A DNA stretch of 22,098 bases, from positions 1 to 22,098 of IMG/VR virus record IMGVR_UViG_3300017764_000134. The stretch is one strand, 5' to 3'. Every line of letters starts with the position of its first letter. Position 1 is the stretch's first letter. Below, in pieces: positions 231-16,790 of the stretch. Both the position numbers and the translations under genes were made by a program. This DNA comes from a virus. The notes under the pieces were generated by a model. That model did not search any database. It saw only the letters and a program-made list of their open reading frames with translations, and was not told where the DNA came from.

Positions 231-253
231 ACTGTAAAAAAGCTTCAAAAAGA

Positions 254-285
254 TTTGCCTATATGAGATTTTTTTCTTATCTTTA
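254..285 (+). promoter_or_regulatory. Early-type promoter, Bacteroidota -33/-7 architecture (copy 1)
   Basis: TTTG at 254-257 is followed after exactly 20 bases by TATCTTTA at 278-285, close to the Bacteroidota housekeeping consensus (TTG, about 19-21 bases, TAnnTTTG). The upstream A-rich segment 237-253 and the -33 region are almost identical to those of the promoter at 4721-4752 (24 of 25 bases over 237-261), with the same spacing. It would drive the small-gene train starting at 345, leaving a leader of roughly 50 bases. Confidence 0.75.
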
Positions 286-344
286 TATATGATAAAAAGG
301 TTAGAGGTCAAGCCTGAAATTGGCCTGAGATTAAAAATTAATAA

Positions 345-3588: not shown

Positions 3589-3594
3589 TATATT

Positions 3595-3603
3595 TATATT
3601 AAA
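3595..3603 (+). promoter_or_regulatory. TATATTAAA element upstream of the hsp20 cassette
   Basis: An exact TATATTAAA, identical to the elements at 673, 6091 and 8846, lies 7 bases after the stop at 3588. The partner box is poorer: CGAA occurs at 3578-3581, three bases further from the element than in the other copies. It is a possible promoter for hsp20 and is reported mainly because the element recurs. Confidence 0.3.
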
Positions 3604-3604
3604 T

Positions 3605-3628
3605 AATTGAACTTCACTGCGGGTTGGT
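3605..3628 (+). repeat. Left arm of inverted repeat flanking hsp20-DUF2061
   Basis: The sequence AATTGAAC, TTC, ACTGCGGG, T, TGGT is matched in reverse complement at 4337-4357. Twenty of 21 aligned bases agree; the differences are three extra bases (TTC) here and one C/T change. The ACTGCGGG core is GC-rich against a strongly AT-rich background. Confidence 0.75.
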
Positions 3629-3677
3629 CGGTTATTTTATTTTTTATTAACATTAAATTATTTAAGGAGATTTAATT

Positions 3678-4109
3678 ATGACACAATTAACACATTTCGG
3701 CACATCGCCGTTCGACATCCTGTTTAGGGATTTTTTTAAGAGCGAAGAAGACTTTGCTCCATTCAATCAAATTAGAGTTAACCATCCAGTAGATATATAT
3801 GAGTTCAAAGACGGACTTAATATTGACATTGCATGCGTTGGATTAGCCAAAAAAGATATTGATCTAAAAATAGAAGGAGATATCTTAAAGGTAGTATATA
3901 AAAAGCCAACTATAGAATCAAATCCGTCGGATAAACCGGCACCAACTTATATCCAAAAGAATATTGCAAAAAGAGCATTTGACTTTGGATGGAGAATTAG
4001 TAGAAGATTTGACCTCGGCAAATTAGAAGCTAAATTAGAGAAAGGTTTGTTACATCTCTATGCGCCATTAGCAGATGAAGCAAAACCAAAATCAGTTACA
4101 ATCAAGTAA
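3678..4109 (+). CDS. hsp20: Hsp20 / alpha-crystallin small heat-shock protein
   Basis: The 143-residue product is of normal length for a bacterial small heat-shock protein, an ATP-independent holdase that forms oligomers and keeps unfolding proteins soluble. The N-terminal arm (1-35) contains FDILFRDFF. The alpha-crystallin domain spans about 36-132, with the typical GLAKKDIDLKIEGDIL pattern (55-70) and a KGLLHLYAP closing strand (122-130). The C-terminal tail carries the V-T-I form of the I-x-I oligomerisation motif (140-142). The start has a strong Shine-Dalgarno sequence (AAGGAG, 3664-3669). Small heat-shock genes occur in many marine T4-like phages, where they are thought to help virion assembly. 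Here the gene sits inside an inverted-repeat-bounded segment with DUF2061. Confidence 0.92.
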   Translation: MTQLTHFGTSPFDILFRDFFKSEEDFAPFNQIRVNHPVDIYEFKDGLNIDIACVGLAKKDIDLKIEGDILKVVYKKPTIESNPSDKPAPTYIQKNIAKRAFDFGWRISRRFDLGKLEAKLEKGLLHLYAPLADEAKPKSVTIK

Positions 4110-4122
4110 GAAGAACTGAATT

Positions 4123-4332
4123 ATGAAAGTAACTAAATTAAGAAGCATATTAAAAGCTATCAGTTGGAGAATTGTAGGGACATTAGATACAATGGCCTTA
4201 GGATGGATCATAACTGGCAGTCCTATAATGGGCTTAAAGATTGGAGCATTAGAATTATTTACTAAATTTATTCTATATTACTTCCATGAAAGAATTTGGT
4301 TACAATCTAAATTTGGAACTAAAGACAATTAA
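4123..4332 (+). CDS. DUF2061 family inner-membrane protein
   Basis: The 69-residue product matches the DUF2061 pattern well. The KAISWRIVGTLDTMALGWIITG segment (residues about 11-32) is the first membrane helix. The second is GLKIGALELFTKFILYYFHERIW (about 37-59). These small two-helix membrane proteins are widespread in bacteria and in marine phages, and their role is unknown. The gene starts 13 bases after hsp20 and ends 4 bases before the right inverted-repeat arm. After its TAA the frame stays open into the next gene. Confidence 0.88.
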   Translation: MKVTKLRSILKAISWRIVGTLDTMALGWIITGSPIMGLKIGALELFTKFILYYFHERIWLQSKFGTKDN

Positions 4333-4336
4333 CTAA

Positions 4337-4357
4337 ACCAGCCCGCAGTGTTCAATT
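4337..4357 (-). repeat. Right arm of inverted repeat flanking hsp20-DUF2061
   Basis: Read on the - strand this is AATTGAAC, ACTGCGGG, C, TGGT, matching 3605-3628 apart from a 3-base gap and one substitution. It covers the GTG start codon (4348) of the following gene. No obvious target-site duplication flanks the two arms. Confidence 0.75.
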
Positions 4358-4575
4358 ACCAATTTATAGATTATAACGGAAAGAAATATTTGATAAAACG
4401 TATTATCAAAGAATCTAGTCTCAAACAAGGATTTGATCAACAAGTTCTTAAACAATGGACTAGGTCTGATACGTTGTTAAGGAAAGACGGATTATTTTAC
4501 TGTTGTGAAACAATCCAGGAAGCAGAAATATTAGGTTGGGATAACCAATCTGCTAATACTATACCGCAAGAATAA
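4348..4575 (+). CDS. Hypothetical protein, 75 residues, unusual start
   Basis: The frame is open directly after the DUF2061 stop at 4330-4332. The only plausible initiator near its beginning is GTG at 4348, which lies inside the right inverted-repeat arm and has no ribosome-binding sequence. The product (FNYQFIDYNGKKYLIKRIIKE..., then WTRSDTLLRKDGLFYCCETIQEAE) is soluble with beta-rich character and looks protein-like. No family was recognised. It could be an intact gene with a weak start, or a gene whose original 5' end was replaced when the hsp20 cassette arrived. Confidence 0.5.
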   Translation: MFNYQFIDYNGKKYLIKRIIKESSLKQGFDQQVLKQWTRSDTLLRKDGLFYCCETIQEAEILGWDNQSANTIPQE

Positions 4576-4720
4576 ATACTACTATCATAATAGTAATGTA
4601 TATTGCAGGTGTTATATCAATTTTTTCTTTCATCTAATAATAAATAGAATAAATGAAGATAGACCACATTAATTTAAGATTAAAAAATCATTAATTTTTT
4701 GGTAAAAAGCTTCAAAAAGC

Positions 4721-4752
4721 TTTGCCTAATTGAAATATATTCCTTATCTTTA
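4721..4752 (+). promoter_or_regulatory. Early-type promoter, Bacteroidota -33/-7 architecture (copy 2)
   Basis: TTTG at 4721-4724 and TATCTTTA at 4745-4752 are separated by 20 bases, exactly as in the copy at 254-285. The similarity extends upstream through 4704-4720. The element lies just before the DNA ligase gene. Together with the ligase start it shows that translation begins at 4775 and not further upstream. The rest of the 199-base gap (4576-4774) holds only small AT-rich hairpins and no gene. Confidence 0.75.
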
Positions 4753-4774
4753 TTATATAAATAAAAAGAAAAAT

Positions 4775-6070
4775 ATGAAAGAAGACCTGAAAGTACTCCA
4801 AGCATTTGTAGATGAAATGAAAGCAAATAGTTCTCTTAATGCTAAGAAGACCATTATTAATGCTTATGGTAAGAATCCATTTATTAAGAGTGCATTAGTT
4901 TATGCATTAGATCCTTATAAGAAGTATTATGTAACCAGTAAGACATGTAAAAAGAATGTAGACATATGTGATATGAATAAGATTCATGATAGTATATTTA
5001 CATTGTTAAACGACCTTAATGATAGAGTATATACAGGACATGATGCAATTGCAATGGTAAATGCATTTATACTTCAACATAAAGAATATGAAGATTTGAT
5101 CTTTAGTATTATAGATAGAAACTTAGAAATTAGAGCTTCTGAATCAGTTATTAATAAAGTTATTCCAAATTTGATTCCAACCTTTGATGTTGCATTAGCA
5201 AATAAGTTTGATCCTAAACGAGTTGATTGGAATGATGTATGGTTTGCAAGTAGAAAGCTTGATGGTGTAAGATGTATTACAATCGTTGATTATCAAGGTA
5301 ATGTTAAATGTTATTCTAGACAAGGAAATGAATTTACGACATTACAGGTTGTTAAAGATGCTATTAAAGAATTAGGAGTTATAGGAGTTGTATTTGATGG
5401 TGAAATTTGTTTGATGGACAAAGACGGAAATGAAGATTTTCAAGGTATAATGAAACAAATTAAAAGGAAAGATCATACCATTCAAAGTCCTAAATATGTA
5501 ATGTTTGATTACTTAACATTAAAAGAATTTGATGCCAAGATAAGTGAGATACCATTAGTAGTAAGAATAGCTAGATTTGCTAAATTAGATACTAAGATTG
5601 CAGACCAAGATTCATTATCAGTCCTAGAACAAATTGTTGTCAGTGATGATGACCATTTTGCTTCATTAAAAAGTAAAGCAGAAGATAAAGGATTTGAAGG
5701 AGTTATGTTAAGAAAAAATGTTGGTTATGAAGGTAAGAGATCACAAAACTTATTGAAGGTAAAAAAGTTTTATGATGCAGAGTATAAAGTTGAGAGTATT
5801 GATTTTGAAGATCATAGAATTATAAGAGATGGAAAAGAAGAGGTAGTTAGAATGATGGCTCAAGCTTATATTAATCATAAAGGACATGAAGTAAAAGTTG
5901 GTTCTGGATGGAATCAAGAGCAAAGATTGAAGTATGAAGCCAATCCAAATTTAATTATTGGTAAGACAATTACCGTTCAATATTTTGAAGAAACTAAAAA
6001 TCAACAAGGGGGATTGAGTTTAAGATTTCCGACCGTAAAACATGTTTATGAAAATGGTAGAAATGTCTAG
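4775..6070 (+). CDS. ATP-dependent DNA ligase
   Basis: The 431-residue enzyme seals nicks in double-stranded DNA using ATP, in phage replication and repair. Motif I is KLDG with the AMP-accepting lysine at K161. Motif III is FDGE (207-210), motif IIIa YVMFDY (241-246), motif IV EGVMLRK (308-314) and motif V LLKVKKF (326-332). An OB-fold domain follows (about 335-431). Residues 1-130 form a helical N-terminal domain, so the architecture is like T4 gp30 but somewhat shorter. The ATG at 4775 is chosen because the frame's upstream extension starts only with TTG at 4730 and would run through the promoter. It is the first gene after the promoter, followed by the UV endonuclease. Confidence 0.93.
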   Translation: MKEDLKVLQAFVDEMKANSSLNAKKTIINAYGKNPFIKSALVYALDPYKKYYVTSKTCKKNVDICDMNKIHDSIFTLLNDLNDRVYTGHDAIAMVNAFILQHKEYEDLIFSIIDRNLEIRASESVINKVIPNLIPTFDVALANKFDPKRVDWNDVWFASRKLDGVRCITIVDYQGNVKCYSRQGNEFTTLQVVKDAIKELGVIGVVFDGEICLMDKDGNEDFQGIMKQIKRKDHTIQSPKYVMFDYLTLKEFDAKISEIPLVVRIARFAKLDTKIADQDSLSVLEQIVVSDDDHFASLKSKAEDKGFEGVMLRKNVGYEGKRSQNLLKVKKFYDAEYKVESIDFEDHRIIRDGKEEVVRMMAQAYINHKGHEVKVGSGWNQEQRLKYEANPNLIIGKTITVQYFEETKNQQGGLSLRFPTVKHVYENGRNV

Positions 6071-8874: not shown

Positions 8875-9492
8875 ATGAGTATATACGAAGAACAGCAACC
8901 TAAAGTTCCGTTGAAAGAAGAAGTTGGTGATAGACCAATTGGTTCATTATATGAATCTTTGCATAATCAATTAGGTACACAATTGGATTATGAAGATTCA
9001 GTTATTTTTATAAATGACGAAATTAATGATACAACATTGACTGATTTTATTATTAGAATGAGGAGTTTATTACAACATAGAAAAGATAAGACAGCTCCAA
9101 TTAATTTAATGATTAATTCTCCAGGAGGAGATATTTACGAAATGTTTGGTATAATAGATTATATTGAATCATTGGACGTTAAAGTTAATACAATTTGTAG
9201 AGGTAGAGCATTTTCGGCAGCAGCTATAATTTTAACATGTGGTACTGGAACAAGAATGATGAGTAGAAGATCAACAGTTATGTTTCATCAATCATCTAGT
9301 TTTTTAGGAGGTAAGATGTCTGACATAACAGCTTATTTAGACAATGTAAAAAGTCTAGAAAAGATTATTTATGGTATGTTAGCAGAAAAAACAAAAAAGG
9401 ATGCAGATTGGTGGAAAAATAAAATGCGAAATGATTTATTTTTAACATCGGAAGAGCTTCGAGAAATAGGAGTAATTGATACAATTATATAA
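8875..9492 (+). CDS. clpP: ClpP-like serine protease
   Basis: The 205-residue protein has the ClpP/crotonase fold and an intact-looking catalytic triad: Ser114 in GRAFSAAAI, His138 in STVMFHQ and Asp187 in RNDLFLTSEE. The substrate-side glycine loop NSPGGDI is at 81-87. Length is normal for ClpP. No Clp ATPase is encoded here, so it either borrows a host ClpX/ClpA-type unfoldase or acts alone, for example in capsid maturation as ClpP-like proteases do in some phages. The ATG at 8875 has a Shine-Dalgarno-like AAAGGG (8864-8869). It forms a tight unit with the groES-like gene 11 bases downstream. Confidence 0.88.
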   Translation: MSIYEEQQPKVPLKEEVGDRPIGSLYESLHNQLGTQLDYEDSVIFINDEINDTTLTDFIIRMRSLLQHRKDKTAPINLMINSPGGDIYEMFGIIDYIESLDVKVNTICRGRAFSAAAIILTCGTGTRMMSRRSTVMFHQSSSFLGGKMSDITAYLDNVKSLEKIIYGMLAEKTKKDADWWKNKMRNDLFLTSEELREIGVIDTII

Positions 9493-9503
9493 AAGGAATA
9501 GTT

Positions 9504-9800
9504 ATGAAAATGAAACCAATGGGAGACCAGCTTTTAGTAAAAGCAGAAGCAAAACAAGAAAAAACAAAAAGTGGAATTATATTAACCAATAATGTAAGTA
9601 ATTATAGTAATGCTGAAGTAATAGCAGTAGGGCCAGGATTATTTACTCAAACTGGTGATAGGATTCCTATGACATGTAACGAAGGTGATACAGTATTATT
9701 ACATTCAAGATTATTGAAAGGAGATAATGAAGTTGAACTTGAAGGAGAGACGTACGTGTTAGTAAGAGAATCAGAAATAGCAATGTTATCAATAAAATAA
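9504..9800 (+). CDS. groES: GroES-like co-chaperonin
   Basis: The 98-residue product follows the Cpn10 pattern: MKPMGDQLLVKAE at the N-terminus, a mobile loop around 17-30 with the GroEL-binding hydrophobic tripeptide IIL (25-27), AEVIAVGPG (37-45), GDTVLL (61-66) and the closing strand YVLVRESEIAML (84-95). It would cap the host GroEL and help fold phage proteins, the role T4 gp31 plays for the major capsid protein. Unlike gp31, it is recognisable as GroES by sequence. The gene lies between clpP and an HD hydrolase with very short spacers, so all three are probably co-expressed. Confidence 0.9.
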   Translation: MKMKPMGDQLLVKAEAKQEKTKSGIILTNNVSNYSNAEVIAVGPGLFTQTGDRIPMTCNEGDTVLLHSRLLKGDNEVELEGETYVLVRESEIAMLSIK

Positions 9801-14930: not shown

Positions 14931-16790
14931 ATGGGAAATTTAGTAAAAAAAGACGTAAAGTATTTGAATAAAGATTTTGCTCAGTTTAGACAAAACTTAA
15001 TAAACTTTGCAAAAAATTATTTTCCAAATACATATCAAGATTTTAATGAATCGTCACCAGGTATGATGTTTATAGAAATGGCATCTTATGTTGGTGATGT
15101 ATTATCATACTATACAGATACGTCATTTAGAGAATCAATGTTATCATCTGCTCAAGAAACTGGTAATATATTAATGTTATCACAATTATTTGGTTATAAG
15201 CCAAAACTAAATTCGCCGGCAACTTGCAAATTAGATGTTTTTCAATTAGTACCATCAAAAGGAAGTGGAGGTGCAGAAAAGCCAGATATGCAATATGCAT
15301 TAACAGTAGCTAGTGGTATGGAAGTTGCAACAAGAGCCGGACAAATATACCATACGGAAGAACCATTAGATTTTAATCAAGATCCAGAAATAACAGTATA
15401 TGAAATAAATAGTTCTGGAGATGTTGCTCGTTATTTATTAAAAAAGCAAATTAATATTATTTCTGGAGAGTTAGTAACTTTAGAGTTTAGATTTGACGAT
15501 CCTAAACCATATGATAAAATTATTCTACCAGAAGATAATGTAATTGATATTTTAGAAGTAAAGGATTCAAATGGTAATATATGGCATGAAGTAGATTATT
15601 TAGCACAAGATACTGTTATGGAAGATATTGCAAATATCCAATTCAATGATCCAGAATTATCAGAGTATAGATCAACAGTTCCATATATTCTTAAATTAAG
15701 GAAGACGCCTAGACGATTTGTTACTAGATTAAGAAATGATGGAAGATTAGAAATACAATTTGGTTCAGGTGTTTCATCTGATGCTGATGAAGAAATAATT
15801 CCAAATCCAAAAAATGTAGGACATGGATTAGAATATTTAAGAAGAACAACAACTAGTAATGTTGATCCAACTAACTTTTTATATACTAGTACATATGGAT
15901 TGGTTCCGTCAAATATAACATTAACAGTTAAGTATTCTGTAGGAGGAAGTGTTGCAGAAAATGTAGGAGTTAATACTATTACTATTATTGATAATATCGA
16001 ATATCTTAACGAAACTGGATTAATTAATTTAACAGAACAAAAAGGGTCTGTTGCTATTACAAATTCAGAGCCTGCTACTGGAGCAAAAGCTAAACAAGAT
16101 CTAGAACATATCAGACAAAATGCAATTGCTACATTTGCAGCACAAAATAGAACAATCACTAGAGAAGATTATATTGCTAGAGTATATTCTATGCCAACAA
16201 GGTTTGGTTCTGTAGCTAAAGCATATGTAGTAGGTGATACACAAATAAACACCCATGATAAAACATATCCATCAGAAACAATTTCAAATCCATATGCATT
16301 AAATATGTATTTATTGGCATATGATAATGATAATAAGTTTATATCATGTAATCAAGCTCTAAAAGAAAATTTAAGAACATATCTATCACAATACAGAATG
16401 TTGACGGATGCACTTAACCTTAAGTCAGCATTTGTTATTAACTTAGGAGTTATATTTGAAGTGATACCTCAACCTAGTTACAATTCTCATGAAGTTGTGT
16501 TAAGATGTATTGATAGATTAAAAACAATATTGCATAACGAAAGAATGCAAATTAATGGACCAATAAGTATATCAGGTCTTATTACAGAATTAGATAAGGT
16601 AGAAGGTGTACAAAGTGTGCCAACATTAGATCTTGTTAATCTTCATGCTCTTGAAGAGGGTTATTCCGGAAATGTATATGACATTAATAGTGCTATAAAA
16701 AATAATATTTTGTATCCATCATTAGACCCAAGTATATTTGAAATAAAATATCCTAATAAAGATATAAAAGGAAAAGCGATTAAACCGTAG
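14931..16790 (+). CDS. gp6: Baseplate wedge protein gp6
   Basis: The 619-residue product is close in length to T4 gp6 (660). The N-terminus carries the typical KDVKYLNKDFAQFRQNLINF pattern, then SSPGMMFIEMASYVGDVLSYYTD (43-65) and the helical ETGNILMLSQLFGYKP. The middle (about 370-460) has the LEHIRQNAIATFAAQNRTIT and REDYIARVYSMP segment of baseplate J/gp6 proteins, and the C-terminus has a GPISISGLITELDKVEGVQS domain. Gp6 dimers form the inner ring tying wedges together. It follows gp25 by 13 bases, with a Shine-Dalgarno-like AAAGGG at 14917-14922. Confidence 0.9.
   Translation: MGNLVKKDVKYLNKDFAQFRQNLINFAKNYFPNTYQDFNESSPGMMFIEMASYVGDVLSYYTDTSFRESMLSSAQETGNILMLSQLFGYKPKLNSPATCKLDVFQLVPSKGSGGAEKPDMQYALTVASGMEVATRAGQIYHTEEPLDFNQDPEITVYEINSSGDVARYLLKKQINIISGELVTLEFRFDDPKPYDKIILPEDNVIDILEVKDSNGNIWHEVDYLAQDTVMEDIANIQFNDPELSEYRSTVPYILKLRKTPRRFVTRLRNDGRLEIQFGSGVSSDADEEIIPNPKNVGHGLEYLRRTTTSNVDPTNFLYTSTYGLVPSNITLTVKYSVGGSVAENVGVNTITIIDNIEYLNETGLINLTEQKGSVAITNSEPATGAKAKQDLEHIRQNAIATFAAQNRTITREDYIARVYSMPTRFGSVAKAYVVGDTQINTHDKTYPSETISNPYALNMYLLAYDNDNKFISCNQALKENLRTYLSQYRMLTDALNLKSAFVINLGVIFEVIPQPSYNSHEVVLRCIDRLKTILHNERMQINGPISISGLITELDKVEGVQSVPTLDLVNLHALEEGYSGNVYDINSAIKNNILYPSLDPSIFEIKYPNKDIKGKAIKP

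Follow-up and report, generated by a model that had tools for sequence, protein, structure and literature searches.

Complementary arms around a phage hsp20 gene pair as RNA, suggesting a 5'-3' mRNA panhandle

In the 22,098-base virus record IMGVR_UViG_3300017764_000134, analysed here over its whole length (the window), two small genes are enclosed by an inverted repeat, which raises the question of whether the repeat acts in DNA, as the ends of a transferable cassette or of an invertible segment, or in RNA, as a long-range stem. All three options had been put forward in an earlier, sequence-only reading of the locus.

Arms around hsp20 and DUF2061

The window encodes a gp25-like baseplate wedge, ClpP, a GroES-like protein, DNA ligase and UvdE. 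Through the ORF at 14931-16790, whose counterpart in Flavobacterium phages is listed as baseplate wedge, the closest named relatives are Microcystis phage Mel-JY01 and immuto-group Flavobacterium phages. Together with a phage-encoded type IX secretion signal domain protein near hsp20 in a related contig (CHU_C, 2.8e-10; L013:1752-2318), gene content and named relatives point to a T4-like phage of Bacteroidota. Hsp20, ClpP and the GroES-like protein (3678-4109, 8875-9492 and 9504-9800) make up a proteostasis set within ~6 kb, and in clade B, one of the two divergent clades of relatives described below, hsp20 is close to GroES and GroEL. Two other RNA elements were observed in related contigs: a permuted tmRNA (RF04321; L013:242-397 (+) and L248:6567-6725 (-)), which in L013 precedes hsp20 by a few kb, and a DUF805b cis-regulatory RNA (RF02914) at L248:8240-8274 (-), ~0.7 kb upstream of the hsp20 leader. 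The features of the locus in the window are the following.

3589..3598, + strand: late-promoter-like TATATTTATA, a putative promoter lying immediately 5' of the left arm
3604..3628, + strand: left arm TAATTGAACTTCACTGCGGGTTGGT, pairing at P ~1.0 with 4337-4358 in the full-length fold and covarying in relatives
3604..3634, + strand: local leader hairpin TAATTG...CGGTTA, an alternative fold predicted for clade A leaders and mutually exclusive with the long-range helix
3664..3669, + strand: Shine-Dalgarno AAGGAG of hsp20, recognised by sequence, outside the helix
3678..4109, + strand: hsp20, small heat-shock protein, 143 aa (Pfam PF00011, 1.8e-6; phrog_432, 5.1e-11)
4123..4332, + strand: DUF2061, an optional cargo gene for a small membrane protein of 69 aa (Pfam PF09834, 1.3e-22)
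4337..4358, + strand: right arm ACCAGCCCGCAGTGTTCAATTA, which starts 5 nt past the stop codon of DUF2061 and covaries with the left arm
4348..4575, + strand: next ORF, 75 aa, with its GTG start inside the right arm

The near-perfect inverted repeat described earlier was reproduced in its coordinates (3605-3628 and 4337-4357), its match of 20 of 21 aligned bases and its single 3-nt indel. The left arm reads AATTGAAC, TTC and ACTGCGGGTTGGT, with the TTC forming a bulge on the left, and the right arm, when reverse-complemented, reads AATTGAAC-ACTGCGGGCTGGT. The sole mismatch becomes a G-U pair in RNA, pairing runs one base further outward on each side (3604 with 4358), and the helix measures ~22 bp with an asymmetric 3-nt bulge. 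That the arms enclose two genes also holds, these being hsp20 and DUF2061 by Pfam, but the right arm contains the GTG (4348-4350) of the next ORF and is not purely intergenic. The arm duplex reaches -31.8 kcal/mol (z = -7.4 against 600 dinucleotide shuffles of both flanks, with mean -13.1, sd 2.5 and minimum -25.8), and in a scan for end-pairing over all gene units of the window the hsp20-DUF2061 unit ranks first, the runner-up reaching -19.8. A search for the arm sequence elsewhere, which the earlier reading had proposed, found no second copy of the 13-base core ACTGCGGGYTGGT in the window at up to 2 mismatches. No Rfam 15 model matched above its gathering score in the window, one chance-level sub-threshold match falling in the region, so a known Rfam cis-regulatory element was rejected.

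The motif ATATTTATA occurs at window positions 2969, 3590 and 11654, ahead of u2990, the hsp20 leader and the 11676 ORF, respectively, and most left arms in relatives are preceded by a sequence of the TATATTTATA or TATATGTATA type. As the left arm starts just past the late-promoter-like TATATTTATA, the hsp20 message probably begins with this arm; from the promoter-like sequence and the position of the arms, we infer that both the 5' and 3' ends of the mRNA lie at the arms. Near-identical promoter-like stretches of another kind (AAGCTTCAAAAAGMTTTGCCTA...TTATCTTTAT) are found at window 240-300 and 4707-4775, before ORF 345 and the ligase gene, and a similar stretch comes after ORF d4348 in L230.

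The arms in related phages

Relatives were sought in collections of fragments from uncultured phages. Same-site relatives, taken as IMG/VR contigs sharing the neighbours u3187, ORF 4348 and usually ligase and UvdE, carry hsp20-DUF2061 (L003, L007, L067, L069, L242) or hsp20 alone (L004, L005, L008, L010, L224, L226, L230, L232), with DUF2061 missing between the same arms in L004, L005, L008, L010, L224, L230 and L232. At the empty sites (L229, L233, L235, L244, L245, L225) there are no arms and u3187 almost abuts ORF 4348; these contigs, mostly fragments, yielded no hsp20 at any other position. The start of ORF 4348-4575 is a GTG within the arm at filled sites and an ATG at empty sites, the two aligning in the hsp20-less L229, L233 and L235. 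One contig (L243) has DUF2061 only, without a left arm and with an apparent decayed right arm, GACCAACCTA. These site states indicate that the arms accompany hsp20 and that gain or loss of DUF2061 has occurred in the interval from hsp20 to the right arm, which tracks the last cassette gene, be it hsp20 or DUF2061. The comparison of related phages suggested in the sequence-only reading thus revealed presence and absence of hsp20 with its arms and no reversal; a constant presence of the genes without conserved arms, the outcome that reading had named as contrary to its proposal, did not occur.

In loci with different neighbours (L012-L015, L248, L252, L262 and others), hsp20 still follows the same leader, and a complementary right arm again comes after the last cassette gene. 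In more distant phages, where hsp20 lies near DNA polymerase, GroES and GroEL, the arms occupy the same positions with very different letters (GCTAGGGCAC, ACTTTAGGGAGC, CAACTTAAGGGCGC and GACCCTAGGGC, as well as AGTAGGTTGGGTGTC in L072, after DUF2061). Nearly all intact hsp20 loci in this phage group have a leader segment, just 3' of the late-promoter-like TATATTTATA, that is complementary to a segment 5-30 nt past the last cassette stop, the arm pair of L081 being weaker; arm letters vary by clade (ACTGCGGGTTGG, GCTAGGGCAC, ACTTTAGGGAGC, CAACTTAAGGGCGC, AGTAGGTTGGGTGTC) and pairing is retained.

No comparable arms were found around the hsp20 genes of cyanophages and Agrobacterium phage Atu_ph07, where values range from -15 to -24 kcal/mol and that of DSL-LC02 (-23.9) resembles a terminator hairpin. 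The named-phage collection held no close hsp20 relative bearing such arms, and the close-relative scan of bacterial genomes found no hsp20 relative. An initial search of viral contigs for the arm pattern gave 100 contigs, the majority with no obvious relation.

Covariation, folding and the DNA readings

Two divergent clades supplied 28 distinct arm pairs, in which 95% of the cells of a 10-bp core are paired, and double changes occur at 7 of the 10 pairs (85 doubly changed cells), counts that are not independent since arm sequences are kin within clades. The covariation score is 0.741, compared with 0.246 for shuffled pairs and at most 0.12 for slid registers, in which pairing drops to 26-49%. 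To locate right arms, the segment near the stop codon with the best complementarity was taken (by an 11-mer search in L012-L014), a choice that favours pairing; the slid registers, the outer-stem pairs beyond the searched core and a second gene, described below, argue against a search artefact. In predicted folds of full-length units, the probability that the core pairs with the right end is 0.9-1.0 at all 15 loci folded.

The kind of pairs retained indicates the molecule concerned. The 11-bp core of clade A comprises 162 Watson-Crick, 12 G-U, 2 A-C and no other pairs, and pooling clade A, clade B and the second gene gives 25 G-U against 5 A-C (binomial p = 0.0003, an optimistic value that ignores relatedness). 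A G-U pair on the sense strand is an A-C on the opposite strand, so that this asymmetry points to pairing of the sense strand, and the excess of G-U fits a sense RNA rather than a double-stranded DNA repeat. Taken together, covariation, sense-strand asymmetry and folding show that the arms pair as RNA, and we hold with high confidence that together they form a single long-range RNA helix in the sense transcript, as the long-range stem option had anticipated. The letters of the core are more conserved than pairing alone needs, with GGG invariant in 28 of 28 rows, suggesting that a protein might read the core too. The local leader hairpin is 98.8% paired at a +2 slide and shows almost only one-sided changes, so its covariation is weak.

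Ranking 568 gene units of the related contigs by end-to-end pairing placed the hsp20 units at the top, and the next best include several copies of a secreted outer-membrane-like protein of 136-144 aa (OMP_b-brl, 6e-5, below the family cut-off). The arm pairs of this gene, counted directly, comprise 84 Watson-Crick, 5 G-U, no A-C and 1 other, with letters that differ between relatives. It was not seen in the window itself; loci where it has its own clade-specific complementary arms include L278:3499-3909, L224:697-1107, L245:660-1070, L289, L280 and others. In L278, L136 and L255, an upstream GGGTGT hairpin loop also matches ACACCC past the right arm of this gene.

These data bear directly on the readings that place the repeat in DNA. 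Were hsp20, alone or with DUF2061, the cargo of a non-autonomous mobile element and the arms its terminal inverted repeats, the presence or absence of the unit at one site and its different neighbours elsewhere would be accounted for, and this part of the transferable-cassette proposal stands, since hsp20 and its arms come and go together. Within one element family, however, terminal repeats would be expected to have letters in common, whereas the arms of the different clades keep only complementarity, with a bias of G-U over A-C, and arms also enclose the unrelated outer-membrane-like gene. Neither a transposase nor, by inspection of empty and filled sites, a clear target-site duplication was found, in agreement with what had been noted before, and RNA structure explains the arms better than recombination ends do. 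The mobile-element reading is therefore largely refuted and very improbable. As for an invertible DNA segment, the inverted arms do bound a gene block, but in all related loci that hold both hsp20 and its flanks, the gene faces the same way with respect to them, there is no recombinase nearby, and the one promoter-like element lies outside the left arm and reads inward; this option found no support, and its probability is negligible.

A possible panhandle on the hsp20 message

Granted an RNA helix, it could serve the next gene: the right arm would hide the GTG of ORF 4348-4575, and the helix would be opened by a ribosome that finishes translating DUF2061 or hsp20 at a stop 5-10 nt upstream. 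In phage MS2, a long-distance interaction controls the replicase start, and the layout here is similar in that a start codon lies within a long-range helix that upstream translation could open; this GTG is within the arm in context-A1 relatives, it has an ATG as its aligned counterpart where hsp20 is lacking, and the distance from stop to arm is short. Unlike in MS2, however, the layout holds for only part of the relatives: the next start is outside the helix in L005, L007, L012-L014 and clade B, clade B has a separate promoter-like TTCGTATATT between arm and next gene, and the next gene varies between contexts whereas the hsp20 side is constant. Such control is possible in the window's own context and not general, and as an account of the helix we consider it quite improbable. 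A lock on hsp20 itself, by which the full-length message would be kept inert through 5'-3' pairing and freed by 3' trimming, has its precedent in toxin mRNAs such as hok and aapA3, in which long-distance pairing competes with a transient 5' hairpin, with coupled covariation known for hok (PMC6733600). The phage leader shares this architecture, its predicted local hairpin being likewise exclusive with the 5'-3' pairing. Nevertheless, hok and aapA lock the translation of a toxin together with an antisense RNA, whereas the phage gene is a chaperone with an unmasked start, and no antisense partner was seen for its message. In predicted folds of 15 loci, the Shine-Dalgarno and start of hsp20, both outside the helix, are nearly equally accessible with and without the right arm, which argues against a translation lock of the hok or aapA type; the helix does not appear to mask the ribosome-binding site in these models, and such a lock seems unlikely. 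An RNA thermometer or lock that masks the Shine-Dalgarno was rejected on the same grounds. An intrinsic terminator built from both arms was also rejected, as no U-run follows the right arm in clade A.

The open Shine-Dalgarno and start, together with analogies to precursor rRNAs and to icaR, favour instead a 5'-3' mRNA panhandle with a role in delimiting, processing or stabilising the hsp20(-DUF2061) message, a reading to which we assign a probability of about 0.6. The helix would connect the hsp20 mRNA's 5' leader with the stretch immediately past the last cassette stop codon, so that a panhandle would form around hsp20 or hsp20-DUF2061. The leader would fold first as a local hairpin displaying the GGG-containing core, and the right arm would then pair with this core and displace the hairpin. 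Once closed, the helix would delimit a late message by serving as a processing site of the RNase III type and/or by locking both ends against exonucleases, and the hsp20 mRNA would be handled separately from its neighbours, in the manner of the stalk around precursor rRNAs. By analogy, a role of the helix in processing or stability is conceivable at slightly less than even odds.

Processing stalks enclose precursor 16S and 23S rRNAs, and RNase III sites are found in phage T7 mRNAs. As in the rRNA stalks, a long stem encloses one RNA unit inside a longer transcript, and the enclosing duplex, of ~22 bp with its bulge, lies in the range of ~20 bp or more that suits RNase III; in contrast to them, the phage stem encloses protein-coding genes and its cleavage is putative. 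The arms also have the layout of a 5'-3' UTR interaction, namely a complementary 5' leader and 3' segment on the same strand of a predicted single mRNA, and differ from it in that they pair without masking the ribosome-binding site at the 15 loci. In the icaR mRNA of Staphylococcus aureus, a CCC-bearing 3' segment pairs with a GGG-bearing 5' leader and the duplex is an RNase III substrate (PMC3868564). The phage arms likewise pair a 5' leader with a 3' segment of the same mRNA across the whole gene. However, whereas icaR pairs 7 nt over the Shine-Dalgarno, the phage helix comprises ~22 bp located 50-75 nt upstream of the start, which is left open, and its pairing is conserved by compensatory change over many phages and two gene families.

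Tentatively, and at less than even odds, Bacteroidota phages may use gene-enclosing RNA panhandles as a general device for chosen late messages, so far the hsp20 units and a small outer-membrane protein, with individually coded, co-evolving arms that would pair only with each other, each message being set apart as a unit of its own and protected or processed as such. To our knowledge, few bacterial or phage mRNAs pair both of their ends, and most of these are translation locks. Here, end-pairing is kept by compensatory change in many marine phages and in more than one gene family, with clade-specific letters and a free ribosome-binding site, which indicates a role in the fate of the RNA and points to an undescribed phage means of marking or protecting particular messages. 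Inverted repeats flanking phage accessory genes can thus be RNA elements and not the ends of mobile elements.
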